Source of the DNA: Actinomycetota bacterium
Lineage (GTDB): Bacteria > Actinomycetota > Actinomycetes > Actinomycetales > Dermatophilaceae
Direction: 5' to 3'
Assembly (NCBI GenBank): GCA_020161845.1
Contig: JAIUNK010000004.1
Coordinates: 1 to 64,000, forward strand
DNA length: 64,000 nucleotides
Shown here: positions 3,360 through 64,000 of the stretch, piece by piece
How the letters are laid out: every line of letters starts with the position of its first letter
Position numbering within the stretch: the stretch's first letter is position 1
Notes under the pieces: model-generated
What the model was told of the DNA's origin: nothing
Database searches by the model: none
What the model saw: only the letters and a program-made list of their open reading frames with translations
Position numbers and translations under genes: made by a program

Positions 3360-5033
3360 TCAGCCGACCGTGACGTCGGCGAACTTCTCGTCGGTGAGAG
3401 GGCTCGGCGTGATGCCCTTGACGGTGTTCTTCACCACGATCGCCGGCGGGGAGTGGCTCACCGGCACCGCCGGCAAGTATTGCTCCACGAGCTTCTTGTT
3501 GATGTCCTCGTACTTCTTCACCCGGGCCGCCTCGTCCGGCGTCGAGTCGGCATCCTTGAGCGACTGCACCAGCTCGGGACCCCATTCGTAATTCTTGAGA
3601 CCGAACCGGTTGTCCAGGCTGGAGAAGAACGTGCCGATGAAGTTGTCGGCGGTGTTGTAGTCACCAGTCCAGCCGAGGATGAACATGGCGGCCTTGCCCG
3701 CGTCCACCTGGTCGAGGTAGCCGCCGTTCCAGGGCTTGGTGGTGGTGTTGACCTTGATGCCGACCTTCTCCAGGTCGGCCTTGGCCGCCTCGTAGATCTT
3801 CACCGGCGCGGGCATGTAGGGCCGGGTCACCTCGGAGGGATACCAGAAGTCCAGCGTCATCCCGGTCGCGCCCGCCTCGGCGAGCAGCTGCTTGGCCTTG
3901 TCGGGGTTGTACTCGGGGACCTTGAGATCCTTGTTGTAGCCCGCGACCGTCTCCGGGATGAATTGGCTGGCCGCCTTGGCCGCCTCGGGGAGCTGGGTCT
4001 TGACGATCTGCTCCCGGTTGATGGCCAACATGATCGCCTGCCGGACCTTGAGGTCCTTCAGCTTGGGGTTGCTGTTGGGGTTGAACCCGAAGTACATGAT
4101 GTTGAACGCGGGCCGCACCATGACGGTGTTGCCGCCGTCCTTGAGCTGGGCCCAGTCGACCGGGTTGGGGAAGTCGTAACCCTGGATCGATCCGGACTGC
4201 AGCGCCTGCCGGCGCGCGACCTCGTCGGGGATGATCTTGAAGATCAGCTTGGCGATCTTCGGCTTGGTCCCCCAGTAGTTGTCATTGCGCTTGAGGGTCA
4301 CGGTCTTGTTGGCCTGGTCGTAGTTCTCCAGGACGAACGGGCCGGTGCCGGTCGGGTGGGCGGTGGCGTATTCGGAGAAGGTGAAGCCCTGCCCGGCCGG
4401 GGTGACCTTGTTGGCGTCGTACTTCTCCATCGCCGTCGGCGACTGCATGTAGAACGACGGCAGGCCGAGGATGGCCGGGAACTTGCTCGTCACCCGGGTG
4501 AGCTTGATGTCGACGGTCTTGGCGTCCTTGGCGGTGCACCCGGCGTACAGGGACTTCTCCTTGCCGTCCTTGAACCCACCGAAGTTCTCCGACCAGTACA
4601 GCGCCGACGTCTGGCCGCCGGTCTGGTTGAACATCCGCTCGAAGTTCTTGCAGACGGCCTCGGCGTTGAAGGCGGTGCCGTCGGAGAACTTGACGCCCTC
4701 GCGGAGGGTGAAGGTCCAGGTCAGGCCATCGTCGCTGGCCTTCCAGTCGGTCGCCAGGGACTGCCCGCCCTTCTCGGGGTCGGCGGTGCCGGGCTTGAAC
4801 ATGACCAGGCCCTCGAACTGCTGGCGGGCGACGCGGAAGGTCTCGCCGTCCGTCGCGTAGTACGGGTCGAGCACCTTGGGAGCGCCGGCGGCGCCGAACG
4901 TGAACGTGTCCCCGCCACCGCCGCCCGTGGTGCCGGTCGTGCCGGCGTCGCGCGCGGACTCGGCGCAGGCGGACAGGCCAACGGTCAACAGGGACGCGGC
5001 GGCGAGCGCCGCGAAGGTACGACGTGCAGACAT
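3360..5033 (-). CDS. Oligopeptide/dipeptide ABC transporter substrate-binding lipoprotein
   Basis: Extracytoplasmic solute-binding protein of the OppA/DppA family (SBP_bac_5), 557 residues. A signal peptide ends in the lipobox LSAC with Cys23, so it should be lipid-anchored. A Gly/Thr-rich linker follows. The body has family landmarks such as LATDWKASDDGLTWTFTLRE, YWGTKPKIAKLIFKII and RQAIMLAINREQIV. I start at ATG 5033, preceded by GGAGAAAGG; upstream in-frame codons would precede the signal peptide and are rejected. It is the first gene of the operon with the B, C and D subunits. The ligand cannot be told from sequence alone. Confidence 0.9.
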   Translation of the reverse strand: MSARRTFAALAAASLLTVGLSACAESARDAGTTGTTGGGGGDTFTFGAAGAPKVLDPYYATDGETFRVARQQFEGLVMFKPGTADPEKGGQSLATDWKASDDGLTWTFTLREGVKFSDGTAFNAEAVCKNFERMFNQTGGQTSALYWSENFGGFKDGKEKSLYAGCTAKDAKTVDIKLTRVTSKFPAILGLPSFYMQSPTAMEKYDANKVTPAGQGFTFSEYATAHPTGTGPFVLENYDQANKTVTLKRNDNYWGTKPKIAKLIFKIIPDEVARRQALQSGSIQGYDFPNPVDWAQLKDGGNTVMVRPAFNIMYFGFNPNSNPKLKDLKVRQAIMLAINREQIVKTQLPEAAKAASQFIPETVAGYNKDLKVPEYNPDKAKQLLAEAGATGMTLDFWYPSEVTRPYMPAPVKIYEAAKADLEKVGIKVNTTTKPWNGGYLDQVDAGKAAMFILGWTGDYNTADNFIGTFFSSLDNRFGLKNYEWGPELVQSLKDADSTPDEAARVKKYEDINKKLVEQYLPAVPVSHSPPAIVVKNTVKGITPSPLTDEKFADVTVG

Positions 5034-57500: not shown

Positions 57501-58412
57501 TCACGGCAGGGGAACATCCCATTCCAGTCCGACCTTGCCGGGCCCGAAGTGCAGGCGGGTCACGGTCATGACCTGCTGAATTTTCGGCACCGTGGTGCTC
57601 TGCGCGGCTTCGGCCGAGGCGCCCTCGACGAGTCGGACGATGTCCGGGAGTCGTCCGGGGGCGAAGTTGACCTCCAGACACAGCTCGCTGATCGGCGCCG
57701 TGGTGAAGGCCACGGCGGCATCCGTCGACGCGCCGGGCCGGTCGCTGAGAAAGGCGATCTCGTAGTCGAGGGCGTGCGTGCCGCCCTGCGCGAGTGGCGG
57801 GATGGCCAGCTCGGCGACGCAAACCGACTCCGCCAGGCGTCCCACGCAGCGGTTCAGGGCGCAGCCGTGCACCGGGGTGATGACGACCTCCTGATCGGCG
57901 ACCGGATGCCAGGCGGCCACCAGATACCGGGCGACCTGCGGTCGGGTGGCCCAAAAGACCTCGCGGACTTGGACGTATCGAATGGACAAGTCCGAGGCGA
58001 CGAAGCTGCGCGCGTGGGCCGAGACGAGGCGCAGCCCGTCGTCGAAGGTGGCGCCGAGCTCGGCCGTGAGTTCTTCGATCACTGCCGCGCGGGTCTCGCC
58101 GTCAGCCATCCGCGCCGGCCGGCTCACCCGGCGCCGGCTGCGCACCACCGGCACGCGCTGGGCCAGGTGTCCCCGTTCGACCCGCAAGATGGTCTCCAGG
58201 GCGCCGAGCGCCCGCAGGGACGTGGCGCGCGAGGGCACGCTGCGGCCGCTCTGCCAGTAGCTGAGCGTGCCGATGCTGACCGTGTGGCCGTGCCCGCGCA
58301 GGTGGGCGCTGACGCGTTCGAGGGGCAGACCGCGGGCGTCGATCGCCGCTCGGAGGGCCTCGTGGAAGGGGAGTTCGCGGGCGCCACGCGTGACGTCCTC
58401 GCGGGCCGACAT
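57501..58412 (-). CDS. HTH protein with an uncharacterised C-terminal domain (intact paralogue)
   Basis: A 303-residue protein. Residues 15-75 form an XRE-like HTH (LPLERVSAHLRGHGHTVSIG, then TLSYWQSGRSVPSRATSLR), almost the same as in the frameshifted neighbour. After a linker comes a 190-residue domain with VREVFWATRPQVARYLVAAWHP, EVVITPVHGCALNRCVGRL and a closing LHFGPGKVGLEWDVP, which I do not recognise. The ATG at 58412 has AGGAG five bases before it. It is 28 bases tail-to-tail from its paralogue and 94 bases downstream of dodecin. A DNA-binding regulator with a sensor domain is likely; ligand unknown. Confidence 0.75.
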   Translation of the reverse strand: MSAREDVTRGARELPFHEALRAAIDARGLPLERVSAHLRGHGHTVSIGTLSYWQSGRSVPSRATSLRALGALETILRVERGHLAQRVPVVRSRRRVSRPARMADGETRAAVIEELTAELGATFDDGLRLVSAHARSFVASDLSIRYVQVREVFWATRPQVARYLVAAWHPVADQEVVITPVHGCALNRCVGRLAESVCVAELAIPPLAQGGTHALDYEIAFLSDRPGASTDAAVAFTTAPISELCLEVNFAPGRLPDIVRLVEGASAEAAQSTTVPKIQQVMTVTRLHFGPGKVGLEWDVPLP

Positions 58413-58506
58413 GGGGGCTCCTTGGATGACTACGGCAGGGGCCCGGGACCGCGGCTGGCGAGACGCCTGCGGATGCACCGGGCAACCCGCGCCGGCGTAC
58501 GGGTGG

Positions 58507-58713
58507 CTACGCGCTGCGGTAGCCGACCTTCAGGGTGACCTGGGTGTGGGCCACCTGCTGGGCGTCGATGTGGCCGCGGATCTCGACGACCTGGAACCAG
58601 TTGAGGTTGCTCACCTCGGCGGCGACGGTCGCGATGCCGTTGCGGATGGCGTCGTCGACGCCCTCGGTGGAGGTCCCGACGATTTCCATCAAGCGGTAGG
58701 AGCGATCGGCCAT
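58507..58713 (-). CDS. Dodecin flavin-storage protein
   Basis: A 68-residue dodecin that forms a dodecameric shell and stacks flavins (or CoA in some bacterial forms). The family pieces YRLMEIVGTSTEGVDDAIRNGI and VSNLNWFQVVEIRGHI are present. Trp39 is the flavin-sandwiching residue, and the end is QVTLKVGYR. AAGGGA before ATG 58713 supports the start; the frame is open far upstream only as antisense of the acyl-CoA dehydrogenase. It may be co-transcribed with the HTH gene behind it. The nearby flavin enzyme (acyl-CoA dehydrogenase) is divergent. Confidence 0.95.
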   Translation of the reverse strand: MADRSYRLMEIVGTSTEGVDDAIRNGIATVAAEVSNLNWFQVVEIRGHIDAQQVAHTQVTLKVGYRSA

Positions 58714-58947
58714 GGGGGCAGTCCCTTCGGGTGGTGCGGCCGAGGCCGCACGGTCGTGGTCCGGACCCGGCCCATTCCACCATCTGACACCCGTGCTCCG
58801 GCAGGCTCGCGCTCGACCACTTCGAGCCGTCCTGCCCGGGGCCGTGGGGTGGTCCGATTCACCCGCCGTAACGGGCCGATGCTCCTGCTGGACGGGGGAT
58901 ACTCGCGCCAGGCACGACGCAGCAACCGACCACGAGACGAGGGTGAT

Positions 58948-60144
58948 ATGTCCCGACTGCAGCGCACCGAAGGCCTCAACGAGGAGCAGGCCGAACTCAT
59001 CAAGCTGGTTCGGGAGTTCGTCGAGGAGCAGATCATCCCCGTGGCCACGGAGATGGAGCACAGGGACGAATATCCGCAGGAGATCGTCGACGCCATGAAG
59101 GAGATGGGGATCTTCGGCCTGATGATCCCCGAGGAGTACGGCGGGTTGGGTGAGTCCCTGCTGACCTATGCGCTGACCGTCGAGGAGATCGCGCGCGGCT
59201 GGATGAGCGTGTCCGGGATCATCAACACCCACTTCATCGTGGCCTACATGCTGCTCCAGCACGGGACGGATGAGCAGAAGCAGAAGTACCTGCCCAAGAT
59301 GGCCACCGGGGAGATCCGCGGCTCCTTCTCGATGTCCGAGCCCGGTTGCGGCTCCGACGTCTCGGCGATCAAGTCCAAGGCCGTCAAGGACGGCGACGGG
59401 TGGCTCGTCAACGCCCAGAAGATGTGGCTGACCAACGGCGGGTCGTCGAACCTGACCGCGGTGCTGGTCAAGACCGACACCGGCGATGACAGCGTCTACA
59501 AGAACATGTCGACCTTCCTCATCGACAAGGAGTCGGGCTTCGGCGCCCAGGCCAACGGCATCACGGTGCCGGGCAAGATCGAGAAGATGGGCTACAAGGG
59601 CGTCGACACCACCGAACTCGTCCTGGAAAACCACCGGACCACCGACGCCCAGCTGCTCGGCGGGGTGCCCGGCAAGGGCTTCTACCAGATGATGGACGGC
59701 GTCGAGGTCGGCCGCGTCAACGTCGCGGCACGCGCCTGCGGGGTGGCCCGGCGGGGGTTTGAGCTGGGCATCGCCTACGCCCAGCAGCGCGAGACGTTCG
59801 GCAAGAAGCTCGTCGACCACCAGGCGATCCTGTTCCGGCTCGCCGACATGGCCACCAAGGTCGAGGCCGCGCACCAGATGATGGTGATGGCGGCCAAGCT
59901 CAAGGACTCCGGCAAGCGCAATGACGTCGAGGCCGGGATGGCCAAATACCTGGCCGCCGAATACTGCGCCGATGTCGTCGAGCAGAGCTTCCGGATTCAC
60001 GGCGGCTACGGCTACTCCAAGGAATACGAGATCGAGCGCCTCTACCGCGAGGCCCCGATGCTGCTGATCGGCGAGGGCACCGCGGAGATCCAGAAGATGA
60101 TCATCGGGCGGTCGCTGCTGAAGGACTACAAGCTCAAGGGCTGA
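58948..60144 (+). CDS. Acyl-CoA dehydrogenase
   Basis: FAD enzyme of 398 residues that introduces the alpha,beta double bond in acyl-CoA. It carries ACAD motifs MSEPGCGSDVSAI (FAD/substrate), AYAQQRETFGKKL and IHGGYGYSKEYEIERLYREA. The catalytic Glu is in LIGEGTAEIQ, as in short- and medium-chain types. GAGGG before ATG 58948 sets the start. The long upstream frame is antisense to dodecin and the regulator. A terminator-like hairpin follows. It might feed the crotonase and lyases of this region, or act on a branched acid from the Liv island. Confidence 0.93.
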   Translation: MSRLQRTEGLNEEQAELIKLVREFVEEQIIPVATEMEHRDEYPQEIVDAMKEMGIFGLMIPEEYGGLGESLLTYALTVEEIARGWMSVSGIINTHFIVAYMLLQHGTDEQKQKYLPKMATGEIRGSFSMSEPGCGSDVSAIKSKAVKDGDGWLVNAQKMWLTNGGSSNLTAVLVKTDTGDDSVYKNMSTFLIDKESGFGAQANGITVPGKIEKMGYKGVDTTELVLENHRTTDAQLLGGVPGKGFYQMMDGVEVGRVNVAARACGVARRGFELGIAYAQQRETFGKKLVDHQAILFRLADMATKVEAAHQMMVMAAKLKDSGKRNDVEAGMAKYLAAEYCADVVEQSFRIHGGYGYSKEYEIERLYREAPMLLIGEGTAEIQKMIIGRSLLKDYKLKG

Positions 60145-60185
60145 CGACGCGGGCGGCGTTGTCGCGCAGTCGTGCTCGGTAGTTT

Positions 60186-60222
60186 GGTGGCGACTCGACC
60201 CCTAGCGGGTCGGGTCGCCACC
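60186..60222 (+). terminator. Terminator hairpin after the acyl-CoA dehydrogenase
   Basis: GGTGGCGAC plus CGACCC pair with GGGTCG plus GTCGCCACC around a 5-base loop, giving 15 pairs and one T-G wobble. It starts 42 bases after the stop. Confidence 0.65.
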
Positions 60223-60388
60223 GTCGTTGGGGGTGACGGTTGCCAACCGGCATGGGGTCCTGCCATTCTTCGGGGCGACGCATCAGAACGGACGTCCGCG
60301 CAGCGCGTGATGGGGGCCGCTGCGGTATTCGGACCGGGACCGTTCGCCCGTGCGTCGAGAGCATCCAAACGACCTTCGTGGAGGACCC

Positions 60389-61105
60389 ATGCCCCCTCGC
60401 AGCACTGTCCGTCGCGCCCCCGGCGGCCATTACGTCACCGTTTCGTGGGAGGGGCCCGCGGTGGGTTCCCACGTGGCGGGCATCCGGTTCGCCGGCGGTT
60501 CGTATGGCCGCGCGTTTCAGATCCATCCCCTGGGCGCCCACGAGTTCGCCATGCAACACCTGGTGGACGCGGGGGCGACCAAGCGGCTTCTGGTCGGTCG
60601 CCGCGAGGTGAAGGTCACCTCGGCCGCGGACCGCTCATCGACGACGGCGACCCTGCTGGGCGCACATCACGAGCTGATGACCGTGTTCACCGGGCCGGCC
60701 CCCGACGAGCGCCGGATCAGTGACCTCTTCGGGGTGCTGGATATCGATGACGCGCCGGAGGGCATGGCGGTCCGGCCGCAGTCGGAGACCATGTTGACGC
60801 CGATGGGCGAGCACATCGTGCTGATCGCCGAGGACTTCACCTCGGTCGACGTACCGGGTCCGACGAACGCCTCCGAGATGGTGCCCAAGGGGCGCGGGCG
60901 CAAGACCCGCAACGGTGAGGTGTGGCGCAACCGGCTGCCCGGCCGCGCCGGCACCCGGGCCAACGACTTCTCCTACGTGGTGGGGACCCCGCGCGGGGCG
61001 GCCGAGGTCATCGCGAGCGATGAGAACCTCGTCTCCGAGGAGAACCTGCTGGCGATGGTCGATTCGCTCGATGTCGCCTGGTCGGCGGGCAAGGGCCGCC
61101 GGTGA
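60389..61105 (+). CDS. Unknown protein, first gene of a MauD/MauE-like redox cluster
   Basis: A 238-residue protein I do not recognise. It has no signal peptide or membrane helix. The N-terminal half has beta-like strands (GGHYVTVSWEGPAVGSHVAGI; FQIHPLGAHEFAMQHLVDAG). The second half has MGEHIVLIAEDFTSVDVPG, a basic loop KGRGRKTRNGEVWRNRLPGRAG and a C-terminal helix EENLLAMVDSLDVAWSAG. It has no cysteine, unlike the rest of the cluster. GGAGG before ATG 60389 is a strong ribosome site. The GTGA overlap with the MauD-like gene says it is made together with the redox proteins, perhaps as a cytosolic chaperone or assembly factor; this is inference. Confidence 0.6.
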   Translation: MPPRSTVRRAPGGHYVTVSWEGPAVGSHVAGIRFAGGSYGRAFQIHPLGAHEFAMQHLVDAGATKRLLVGRREVKVTSAADRSSTTATLLGAHHELMTVFTGPAPDERRISDLFGVLDIDDAPEGMAVRPQSETMLTPMGEHIVLIAEDFTSVDVPGPTNASEMVPKGRGRKTRNGEVWRNRLPGRAGTRANDFSYVVGTPRGAAEVIASDENLVSEENLLAMVDSLDVAWSAGKGRR

Positions 61106-61641
61106 GCGTACCCGTCGCGCTCGGGATCCTCACGTGGGTCGCGGTGCTCGTGCTCTACCTCGCCCTGGCTGCCGTGTTGCGGGAGGTCCGGCTGCTGCGG
61201 CGGCAGGTGGCCCGGCTCTCGGTGCAGGTGGCTCCGGGGGGAACCGGGGCGGAGGGTACGCCGACCGGGGCGGCGCCCGGCCTCCGGCGTACCGACCTGG
61301 CCCTGACCCCCGCGGCCGCCGGTCGCGGCGGGCCCGTCCTCGCGGCCACCAGCACCTGCCCGCTGTGTCGGGTGGCCCTGGATCGCCTGGCGCGCTGGGC
61401 GGTGGCCAGCGGCAGCCCGGCCACGCTGCTCACGTACGAACCGGATTCCGCCTGGGGCGAGCTGCCGGGCGGGGTGCGTGTCGTCCGGGACGACGCGGCC
61501 TGGTCCGGCATCGCCCACATCGATCCACCGCTGCTCATGGACGTCGCCGATGACGGCGCCGTCCGGGATATCGCCTTGCCGGCCACGGGTGCGGACGTCG
61601 ACGCCGCGCTCGCCCTGTGGCCCGCTTCCCAGACCCGCTGA
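61102..61641 (+). CDS. MauD-like membrane-anchored thioredoxin-fold protein
   Basis: A 179-residue protein with one N-terminal helix (PVALGILTWVAVLVLYLALAA), a basic helix REVRLLRRQVARLSV, and a small thioredoxin-like domain. Its TSTCPLCRVALDRLA holds a CxxC in the usual place. This is the layout of MauD, which is needed for disulfide formation in the methylamine dehydrogenase small subunit. The GTG overlaps the upstream stop and the next gene begins 17 bases later. It probably oxidises or isomerises disulfides in the six-cysteine Tat protein encoded next. Confidence 0.7.
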   Translation: MSVPVALGILTWVAVLVLYLALAAVLREVRLLRRQVARLSVQVAPGGTGAEGTPTGAAPGLRRTDLALTPAAAGRGGPVLAATSTCPLCRVALDRLARWAVASGSPATLLTYEPDSAWGELPGGVRVVRDDAAWSGIAHIDPPLLMDVADDGAVRDIALPATGADVDAALALWPASQTR

Positions 61642-61658
61642 CGACAAGGACAACCGTC

Positions 61659-62225
61659 ATGACTCTTCACTTCACCGACATTCCCGACGCCGACGCCACC
61701 GAGACCACCGAACGCACCCAGGCCCTGACCGCGCTCGGTGCGCTGGCCAAGCGCCGGACCGTGCTGCGCGGCATGGCGCTGGCCGGCGCCACGATCGGCG
61801 CCACCGCCCTCGGCTGGTCGCCGCTGGGTCGGTCCGACGCCGCGAGCGCCGAGACGTCGCCGAGCGGTCTGCTCGGCTGGGACGCCAACGACTGCAAGGA
61901 CGCCTACCCGAACGGCTACAACGAGCAGCCCGACAACGTCGGCGTCTACCAGAGCCAGCCGGGGGCCTGTTTCGGCGGCTACTACATGGGTTCGACGATG
62001 TGCGACAGCACCGGCTGGCACCGCGCGGACAGCGTGCGCAACAGCTGGATCCAGACCACGTCGTACCGCCCGATCTCGTCCGCCTGCGGGGCGACCACGA
62101 CGAAGAACGCCTGGCGGTGGACGGTGAACGGCGTCACCTACCGGTGTTCGGACGGGACGATGTCGATCAAGTACTGGGGGCTCACCTGGTACACCTACCT
62201 GACCATCTGCCGCGCTCGCGTCTGA
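61659..62225 (+). CDS. Tat-exported six-cysteine, Trp-rich small protein
   Basis: A 188-residue protein. A 32-residue lead precedes the Tat motif KRRTVLRGMALAGATIGATA, a placement also seen in the methylamine dehydrogenase small subunit. The mature part of about 125 residues has six Cys (NDCKD, GACFG, TMCDS, SACGA, YRCSD, TICRA) and seven Trp. It also has many Tyr and Gly, such as CFGGYYMGSTMC, KNAWRWTVNG and KYWGLTWYTY. It is shorter in Cys than MauA and no Trp-Trp cofactor can be claimed. AAGGA before ATG 61659 fixes the start. Its neighbours suggest that it is the client of the MauD/MauE-like pair. Function unknown. Confidence 0.7.
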   Translation: MTLHFTDIPDADATETTERTQALTALGALAKRRTVLRGMALAGATIGATALGWSPLGRSDAASAETSPSGLLGWDANDCKDAYPNGYNEQPDNVGVYQSQPGACFGGYYMGSTMCDSTGWHRADSVRNSWIQTTSYRPISSACGATTTKNAWRWTVNGVTYRCSDGTMSIKYWGLTWYTYLTICRARV

Positions 62226-62238
62226 GGTGGCGGTGTCG

Positions 62239-62439
62239 ATGACCACGGCGGCGCTGTCGTCGCGCGCCTGGCACCCGCTCACGGGGGCCTGGGCGGTCGC
62301 CGTTCCGGCGCTGGTCGCGGTGGCCGCCGCCGCGCTGTGGCGAGGCGCCGGTGCCGGTCCGGCGTGGGGCGGGATCGCGTTGACCACCTATCTCGCCATG
62401 GGCACGGTGGCCGGGTTTTCCGTCTCCGGCTCCACTTGA
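62239..62439 (+). CDS. Small two-helix membrane protein in the redox cluster
   Basis: A 66-residue hydrophobic protein with two likely membrane helices (AVAVPALVAVAAAALW and GIALTTYLAMGTVAGFSVSG). ATG 62239 has GAGGTGG eight bases upstream; two in-frame GTG codons closer to the previous stop are less likely. It starts 13 bases after the Tat protein and ends 18 bases before the next membrane gene. I do not recognise it. It could be a small partner of the larger membrane protein that follows. Confidence 0.5.
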   Translation: MTTAALSSRAWHPLTGAWAVAVPALVAVAAAALWRGAGAGPAWGGIALTTYLAMGTVAGFSVSGST

Positions 62440-62457
62440 AGCCGCAATTCAGCCTTC

Positions 62458-63009
62458 GTGCTGAACTCGCCCGTGTGGCGGGGCTGGCCGCAGTACGCGT
62501 TCGGGCTTGGGCTCGTCGTGGGTGGAGTGTTGGCCGCGGGGGTGGTCGTGACGGTGGGCTCGCTGGTTCGCCTGATCGCACCGCCCGTGGTGTGGGCCGT
62601 GGCGGTCGTCGCCTGGTTCGCGGTGATCGCGGTGCGCGAGGTCGGGCTGATCTCGTTCGGGTTGCCGCAGAACGCGCGGCTGGTGCCGGAGTCCGTCTTC
62701 CGGCATGGCCGGTTCTGGGGGCCGTTCGAGTTCGGCCTCGAGATGGGCACGGGGGTGCGCACGTATGTGACCTCGGGCTTGCCGTACGTCGTGGTGCCCG
62801 TGCTGGCCTTGCTGGCGGGCTGGGCTCCGGCCCTGGTGGCGGGTGTCGGCTTCGGGCTCGGGCGTGCCCTGATGACGGTGTCGGCCGTGCGGTACGGCCG
62901 GGATGCGGAGTGGGATCTGGCCTTCGATGCCTCGGCCGGGGTCATTCGTTTTGTCCTGCTGTCGGCCTTTGCGGCGGCGCTGGGCGTGGCGGTGGTGACG
63001 GCGCTGTAA
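62458..63009 (+). CDS. Polytopic membrane protein of the redox cluster
   Basis: A 183-residue protein with about five or six helices. A central loop has VREVGLISFGLPQNARLVPE, then FRHGRFWGPFEFGLEMGTGVRTY, wording I associate with actinobacterial membrane proteins of unknown role. It has no Cys pair, so it is not an obvious CcdA/DsbD. The GTG start has no good ribosome site, and a 6-bp stem (TTCAGC/GCTGAA) surrounds it. It may be translated by coupling to the preceding small gene. It converges with the MauE-like gene 15 bases on. Confidence 0.6.
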   Translation: MLNSPVWRGWPQYAFGLGLVVGGVLAAGVVVTVGSLVRLIAPPVVWAVAVVAWFAVIAVREVGLISFGLPQNARLVPESVFRHGRFWGPFEFGLEMGTGVRTYVTSGLPYVVVPVLALLAGWAPALVAGVGFGLGRALMTVSAVRYGRDAEWDLAFDASAGVIRFVLLSAFAAALGVAVVTAL

Positions 63010-63024
63010 TCCGGCGTGTTCCTC

Positions 63025-63561
63025 TCAGCGTTTCGGTGCGAGCAGCTGGGGGAGTAGCCAGGCGATGGCCGCGATGATGGCTGCGGCCGCCAGGGCAGCC
63101 AGTCGGCCAAGGGGCTCGGCGGGGGATGATCCGGCGCCGCCCCCAACCGACAGGCCCGCGGCGAGCCCCGAGGCCAGCGCGGCGATCGTCGCCCGGACAA
63201 TGGCCGGCACCCCGGTCGGGGAATCGTCCCCGAAACACCCACAGGGAGCCCCGGGGCGGCGCCGGAGCAGCACGGTCAGATAGCCGGCGAAGGCGGCGTA
63301 CAGGCCGGCCTGCGCGGCGAACGGCGCCCGCGTGGCCATGTCGAGCACCCAGGTCAGCAGGGCCGCCATGCCAATGATGAGCTGCCCTGGCCCGAGGACG
63401 GCCGCGAGCAGGCGCCGTGGGCGGGGCGCCAGCAGGCGCTGCGCGGCCAGCACGGCGGCCAGGTCGCGGGGTGCCCGCAGATGGGTCGCTCCGGCAGTCA
63501 CGAGCAGCAGCGAACCGGCGAGCGCCACGGCCGCGACGACGTCCGTCCCGGTGAGGACCAT
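63025..63561 (-). CDS. MauE/DoxX-like redox-associated membrane protein
   Basis: A 178-residue membrane protein with about five helices and the motif APCGCFGDD, the C-G-C-F-G pattern of MauE-type proteins that work with MauD in forming disulfides outside the membrane. The helices around ATRAPFAAQAGLYAAFAGYLTVLL fit the family. I start at ATG 63561, where the first helix begins; a GTG at 63591 would add ten polar residues. No clear ribosome site is seen. It faces the rest of the cluster and so must have its own promoter in the 63562-64000 region. Confidence 0.72.
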   Translation of the reverse strand: MVLTGTDVVAAVALAGSLLLVTAGATHLRAPRDLAAVLAAQRLLAPRPRRLLAAVLGPGQLIIGMAALLTWVLDMATRAPFAAQAGLYAAFAGYLTVLLRRRPGAPCGCFGDDSPTGVPAIVRATIAALASGLAAGLSVGGGAGSSPAEPLGRLAALAAAAIIAAIAWLLPQLLAPKR

Positions 63562-64000
63562 GCGATCAGCGTAAGTGTCGTGACCGGACACGATCGGACG
63601 TCAGGTGGGCGATCTGATTTAAAGGATGCCTTATCGCGGATGAATCATCGGTGTTAATGGTTGTACACCCTGCCTGAGCAGGACCGGTGTCGAACCGCCC
63701 GATCTACGGTCCGCGACCCGTGCGGCTGAACCCGTCAAACTAATCGACGAACGGTCACCGTGGGCCTTGATCTGGGCATTTAGTTCCTGCACTATCTGTG
63801 AAGACGCAGCTGGACGATCGTACTGCGCGGTCGAGCCCGCAGTTTGCGTCACGCCTTCTGCTCGATAGCGATGGCAAACCCTCGGAGTGCCCTAGGCGAT
63901 TCTGATGCTCAGTGGCACTCACCGTGAGCCCGCGTGATGCGCGGGTCGTGGTCGGCCGGTCAACGGCGCCCTGCCGACCACGATCCGGCACGGTGCGTGT
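63562..64000. other. 440-base region without a supported gene
   Basis: Two minus-strand frames of 73-78 codons exist but show no domain, no ribosome site and odd composition. The region is visibly poorer in GC than its surroundings in places (GATTTAAAGGATGCCTTATC). It holds one short hairpin (CCCGCG-N5-CGCGGG, about 63930-63946) and an 11-bp inverted repeat (TCGTGGTCGGC, 63946-63956, with 63973-63983). Promoters of the MauE-like gene should lie on its left side. It could be an integration or mobile-element flank. Confidence 0.5.
63946..63983. repeat. 11-bp inverted repeat near the right end
   Basis: TCGTGGTCGGC pairs with GCCGACCACGA across a 16-base loop. It could be a terminator of a gene beyond the window or a mobile-element end; context is lacking. 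Confidence 0.4.

Follow-up and report, generated by a model that had tools for sequence, protein, structure and literature searches.

MauF is needed for methylamine dehydrogenase, and in Paracoccus denitrificans its gene lies in the cluster mauF-mauB-mauE-mauD-mauA (NZ_CP035092.1). MauE and MauD are likewise essential for this enzyme, and MauE has been speculated to act in disulfide formation (PMC7794033 and the title of its reference 66). In that article Kloosterman et al. (2020) describe candidate clusters for ribosomally synthesized and post-translationally modified peptides (RiPPs) in Streptomyces, in which MauE, in one family together with MauD, stands beside precursors with at least eight cysteines. 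Here we describe a related cluster at positions 60389 to 63561 of a 64,000-nucleotide (nt) stretch of contig JAIUNK010000004.1 (the window), from an actinobacterium of the Dermatophilaceae. As in P. denitrificans, homologues of MauF, MauE and MauD are present and a small cysteine-rich protein with a twin-arginine leader is encoded alongside; the differences are an apparent selenocysteine (Sec) in place of the MauF cysteine, an additional gene (gene 1), the absence of MauB from the 28 genomes searched, and a presumed client that is not detectably MauA. The Streptomyces clusters share with it a MauE, and in one family a MauD, next to a cysteine-rich product, and are set apart in that the passages on them name no MauF and the article contains the word 'selenocysteine' nowhere. 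In our view the locus probably specifies a Mau-like maturation system that depends on selenium and acts on an exported cysteine-rich protein. Its features are as follows.

60389..61105, plus strand: gene 1, a putative lineage-specific helper of 238 residues, without a Pfam or NCBIfam match
61102..61641, plus strand: gene 2, a MauD-like, membrane-anchored protein of thioredoxin fold with a CPLC motif, assigned by hhalign to MauD
61659..62225, plus strand: gene 3, presumed to be the client, a cysteine-rich protein carrying a twin-arginine leader (19-row alignment)
62227..63009, plus strand: gene 4+5, a MauF-like polytopic predicted selenoprotein of 260 residues with Sec71; start GTG at 62227 or ATG at 62239
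62437..62439, plus strand: UGA codon predicted to be read as selenocysteine; TGA conserved, Cys in two close homologues
62448..62465, plus strand: hairpin 1, TTCAGC-CTTCGT-GCTGAA, beginning 8 nt after the UGA
62466..62482, plus strand: hairpin 2, CTCGCC-CGTGT-GGCGGG, the likely selenocysteine insertion sequence (SECIS), from covariation and fit to the bacterial model
63025..63561, minus strand: MauE family membrane protein (PF07291, E 1.9e-18)

The open reading frames (ORFs) 62227-62439 and 62458-63009 are in the same frame and are split only by the TGA at 62437-62439 and six further codons; reading through gives a single polytopic protein, and the sequences indicate that the two are very probably one gene, 62227-63009. 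An earlier note on this DNA had described six adjacent genes here, among them a small two-helix protein and a separate polytopic protein. All of its ORFs were found at their positions and on their strands, and these last two give way to one MauF-like predicted selenoprotein that spans the in-frame UGA.

In G033, the relative detected first, the five genes recur in unchanged order, with 58% identity in gene 3, and the DNA spanning the TGA is among the best conserved stretches between it and the window. An order-wide search gave matches in 7 of 396 genomes, with one in-frame TGA in each of four strong matches (G000, G033 and two in G275); the matches in G114 and G168 start downstream of a TGA, likewise in frame, and weak rows from G027 (C2:588173) and G368 were set aside. 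Scanning a genome collection with a four-row alignment, by one pattern that demanded cysteine at the site and another that ignored the site, returned 27 loci, three of them already known from G033 and G275, in Mobilicoccus, Actinoplanes, Crossiella, Micromonospora, Amycolatopsis, Saccharothrix, Serinicoccus, Ornithinimicrobium and other genera. Every one of the 27 has TGA at the site, in the context SGSxU..NSA. Together with G114, G168 and the window they make 30 aligned rows, all with TGA at the site and coding sequence flanking it. When the whole class was searched with a profile, 26 of 394 genomes matched, in a total of 30 rows, of which 25 have one TGA, one is a downstream piece (G433), two are weak and unrelated, and two have no stop; G187 and G278, weak and without the motif, were set aside. 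TGA was read at the site in 23 further rows from this search (24 TGA rows lie outside the window), giving 53 UGA sites in total, all from one class of bacteria, besides G433, which is counted as a UGA genome from the stop count of its split gene (L099) rather than from the site itself. Cysteine occupies the site in G515 and G424, where WSPC-GASML and WSPC-GISML correspond to WSPU-GESML. The loci fall into three types, here called window, second and third type, and in a 38-row tree, whose inner forks are open and in which MauF is a long branch, both cysteine rows lie inside the third-type Sec group (100/96); this nesting fits a change from Sec to Cys.

Hairpin 2 is likely the SECIS, as judged from its conservation and pairing. 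All 168 of its cells are paired across 28 distinct rows, five of the six pairs have changes on both sides, and its covariation score is 0.590, compared with 0.199 (standard deviation 0.031) after shuffling and no more than 0.168 when the pairing is slid. Because part of these sequences had first drawn attention to the stem, it is favoured over the slid versions, a bias from which the comparison with the cysteine forms is free. In a more diverse set of 27 rows (A11) pairing is 99.4% and the covariation score 0.563; 14 of these rows were picked from 23 new UGA rows, omitting L071 and L079 (3-nt gap), L097 (poor hairpin fit), and L073, L083, L084, L088, L090 and L098 (similar to kept rows). The published model of bacterial SECIS elements combines a 3-9 nt loop with an early G[G/U], a stem of 4-16 base pairs, a spacing of 16-37 nt and an energy of -7.5 kcal/mol or below (PMC13188914). 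This model is fitted by 29 of the 30 aligned and 21 of the 23 further rows, against a background in which 138 of 1356 TGAs on both strands of the window also fit. Most rows have GGUC in the loop, a feature shared with the host formate dehydrogenase (GGUCU) and Escherichia coli fdhF; the loop of the window reads CGUGU. In the cysteine homologues of G515 and G424 the best hairpin reaches only -2.5 and -1.3 kcal/mol, and the SECIS is lost. Hairpin 1 keeps its distance from the UGA in 30 of 30 rows and forms five or six of its six pairs in all of them when the best of five loop lengths is taken; its loops differ in length, and for this reason only 75.6% of cells are paired in one common register.

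The host encodes tRNA-Sec(tca), SelA and SelB together on one contig, and the same genes share a contig in G033, where SelB scores just below its cut-off (227 against 242 bits). SelA exceeds its cut-off in every one of the 26 genomes that carry the UGA form, in neither of the two with the Cys form and in 7 of 20 without the gene, the last being those listed by the class-wide search and not a random sample (Fisher tests of 26/26 give 7.6e-7 against 7/20 and 0.003 against 0/2, ancestry uncorrected). A formate dehydrogenase alpha subunit of the host likewise contains an in-frame TGA, followed by a hairpin with a GGUCU loop (G000:C10:847-3966; L061, L063). In G033 and G275 no TGA-containing formate dehydrogenase gene was detected, so that in these two genomes the MauF-like protein may be one reason for keeping the Sec trait.

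Profile comparison makes it highly probable that the product of gene 4+5 is a distant homologue of MauF. With third-type rows included, hhalign matched the family to P. denitrificans MauF at 98.2% (E 3.8e-14, 193 columns) and placed the Sec column, entered as Cys, on the cysteine of STWSPCG in MauF; with the site masked the match still reached 96.3% and 96.4% (E 1.6e-9 and 1.2e-9), and an ordinary BLASTP search with the third type matched MauF at 2e-7. We call the protein MauF-like and not MauF because MauB was found in none of the 28 genomes. DsbD and CcdA carry two redox cysteines in their membrane domain, whereas the window protein has one Sec, no Cys, and no CxxU or UxxC motif. The profiles DsbD_2 and DsbD_TM give one third-type member 22.1 and 19.1 bits, below the respective cut-offs of 24.9 and 27.1, and this member has an LSPC-like site that we take to resemble that of DsbD and CcdA.

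With catalogued selenoproteins the family shares a UGA, agreement with the bacterial SECIS model and Cys homologues. MauF is not among the 119 prokaryotic selenoprotein families in Table 1 of the 2026 catalogue (PMC13188914), of which the nearest, judged by name only, are TsoB (a rhodanese/DsbD fusion) and the YeeE/YedE transporter. The terms Mau, CcdA, DsbD and methylamine have zero occurrences in PMC9312934 and PMC12013277. No paper among those listed by searches of the open-access literature deals with a MauF selenoprotein, nor is the MauF-like selenoprotein family in Pfam or NCBIfam at the thresholds used.

Several observations weigh against the interpretation of the locus as a selenium-dependent maturation system. 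TGA is the stop of 30 of the 38 likely genes in the window, so its constancy at the site is weak evidence when taken alone. The Cys forms were seen in two genomes only, SelA also occurs in the 7 relatives without the gene, and shared ancestry is uncorrected. L051, L091 and L097 fail the energy limit of the SECIS model, the 32 nt between the UGA and the SECIS loop come close to the upper limit of 37 and exceed the spacing in the host formate dehydrogenase, and the folding energy alone is ordinary (z 0.06). In the comparison with MauF, masking the site shifts the motif one column off, and the ten window- and second-type rows alone align in the C-terminal half only (93.0%). All of the evidence is computational, and from it we infer the action on the cysteine-rich protein. 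The first of these points, along with a GTG or ATG just after the TGA in many rows, would suit an ordinary stop separating two coupled genes, 62227-62439 for a small two-helix protein and 62458-63009 for a polytopic one; such an arrangement is nevertheless very improbable, given that distant rows keep the frame, the spacing and the NSA motif, that an uninterrupted Cys form exists in two genomes, that the hairpin covaries and is lost in the Cys forms, and that SelA follows the UGA form as it does. From the comparison of these sequences the UGA at 62437 is almost certainly decoded as selenocysteine.

Around this predicted selenoprotein, every one of the 30 loci encodes a MauD-like protein and 21 of them MauE, by profiles seeded with BLAST matches from the same loci; the MauE count is a lower bound because contig ends cut some loci. 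The gene facing the others, which the earlier note had read as MauE-like, matches PF07291 at 67.4 bits against a gathering cut-off of 27. The MauD-like CxxC protein of that note (gene 2) lies far below the cut-off of the TIGR02661 MauD model (13.1 against 188.6 bits), so the name holds by remote homology: the 18-row family aligns to P. denitrificans MauD by hhalign at 87.1% (E 4e-6, 149 columns), with CPLC on the CPVC of MauD, and the Cys pair and a PP stretch are conserved within the family. For genes 1, 3, 4 and 5 no believable Pfam or NCBIfam family match was obtained, and gene 3 is thus of no known family, as first supposed. By BLAST, gene 1 is present in 18 of 18 window-type loci (L034-L051) and in none of nine second-type (L052-L060) or two third-type loci (L027, L028); its AlphaFold2 model is confident (predicted local distance difference test 93.1) and has no clear fold match. 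A failure of the genes to occur together, named at the outset as an outcome that would speak against a joint system, was thus seen only for gene 1 and partly for MauE, and not for the others.

Some genomes hold two copies of the UGA gene: those of G275 are divergent and stand in two different clusters (C20:263247-263906 and 313030-313683), and G582, G553 and G453 likewise have two. A Nonomuraea record in the plasmid collection matches the MauF-like protein at E 4e-14, its site not having been read.

Gene 3 encodes a leader with RR followed by six cysteines, in agreement with the Tat-type (twin-arginine translocation) leader and cysteine count first noted for it. In the 19-row alignment the RR, five of the six cysteines, WxW and CSDG are invariant, and the conserved core is rich in Trp and Tyr. 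All 27 loci scanned, 18 of the window type and 9 of the second type, have a homologue, and BLAST with the third-type protein found one in 7 of 30 class-search loci. Members of the family are 170-330 residues long with Tat-type leaders; the window member has six cysteines, second-type members ten, and third-type members about 22 (counted by eye). Relatives are fused to PG_binding_1 (L086:433-1413, 1e-28) or to LGFP repeats (L087:953-1939, 4.5e-40), which suggests that the clients act at the cell wall. The homologue in G168:C1 (L021, L028) seems frameshifted, possibly by sequencing error.

The cysteine pattern of gene 3 had been noted as unlike that of MauA; in sequence comparison, Pfam gave no match to MauA (PF02975) up to E 10, and hhalign with the window-type profile gave 3.3%. 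Over the leader, MauA is matched by the second and third types (87.4% and 84.6%); in the third the alignment extends as far as the CPPG stretch. A search of 28 genomes for MauB (PF06433) found none, the P. denitrificans positive control scoring 2.4e-212, and this absence, also proposed before, means that the set apparently does not serve methylamine dehydrogenase. The view that it serves something else is upheld by this together with the lack of a MauA match and the wide presence of MauD-like proteins and MauE. No amicyanin or MauG gene is among the ORFs listed for 58000-64000; a genome-wide search was not made. On a Thermomicrobium roseum plasmid (L069), an unannotated stretch at 4001-4219 is similar to MauA (37% over 73 residues) and lies just before a MauE/DoxX gene.

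On these grounds it is reasonably likely that the cluster matures its cysteine-rich neighbour, and we lean, with somewhat less assurance, towards disulfide chemistry over another modification. In such a scheme the cysteine-rich protein would leave the cell by the Tat route, and the membrane-anchored MauD-like protein would exchange disulfides with it. Because the MauF-like protein of the window has no Cys, the partner of its Sec would lie in another protein, most obviously in the MauD-like protein with its CPLC; the Sec-containing MauF-like protein may form a selenenyl-sulfide with the MauD-like protein or MauE, by which electrons would be given or taken, and may couple this redox reaction to the membrane or cytoplasm. 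The electron flow could either oxidise the client or serve to correct its disulfides, and gene 1 would be a lineage-specific helper.

The same selenoprotein could instead belong to a set that modifies a RiPP or installs a cross-link other than a disulfide in the cysteine-rich protein. The Streptomyces clusters with MauE and MauD beside cysteine-rich precursors, the lack of a known family for gene 1 and the Trp/Tyr-rich core of gene 3 would be in keeping with this. We regard it as unlikely, however, in view of the length and Tat-type leaders of the clients and the peptidoglycan-binding or LGFP domains of some, and of the lack of any further modifying enzyme that is constant across the three locus types. 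In several members, moreover, the conserved Trp of GWH is replaced by Phe (GFH, by eye), which disfavours a conserved pair like that of tryptophan tryptophylquinone; a Trp- or Tyr-derived cofactor, one of the earlier note's suggestions for the exported protein, may or may not be present. A general role in extracytoplasmic redox or in selenium or oxidant handling, with the cysteine-rich protein as redox partner or reductant and not as client, would accommodate a single Sec outside any CxxU or UxxC motif in a protein without Cys, and an open redox direction; the fixed linkage to MauD-like and cysteine-rich proteins in three divergent types and the homology to MauF make this a decidedly poor prospect. 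For the preferred maturation system we tentatively propose, at somewhat less than even confidence, that the MauF-like protein is a DsbD/CcdA-like conduit of a single chalcogen, with one Sec and no Cys, which would use an intermolecular Se-S bond to relay electrons between an extracytoplasmic thioredoxin and the membrane or cytoplasm, would serve a large class of Tat-exported, partly wall-bound cysteine-rich proteins, and could help to sustain the Sec trait without a Sec-containing formate dehydrogenase.

The locus would add a selenoprotein family that standard ORF reading cuts in two, and offers a candidate active residue for MauF, a poorly understood maturation protein. It would link selenium to the finishing of exported cysteine-rich proteins, by a gene set that probably does so in many actinobacteria. 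Sec and Cys forms occur within one bacterial family (G552 against G515 and G424), a natural experiment on what Sec contributes. Upstream of the cluster lie a plus-strand gene at about 58930-60144, which from its translation we take to be acyl-CoA dehydrogenase-like, and a short minus-strand ORF at about 58576-58783, presumably dodecin-like on the same basis.

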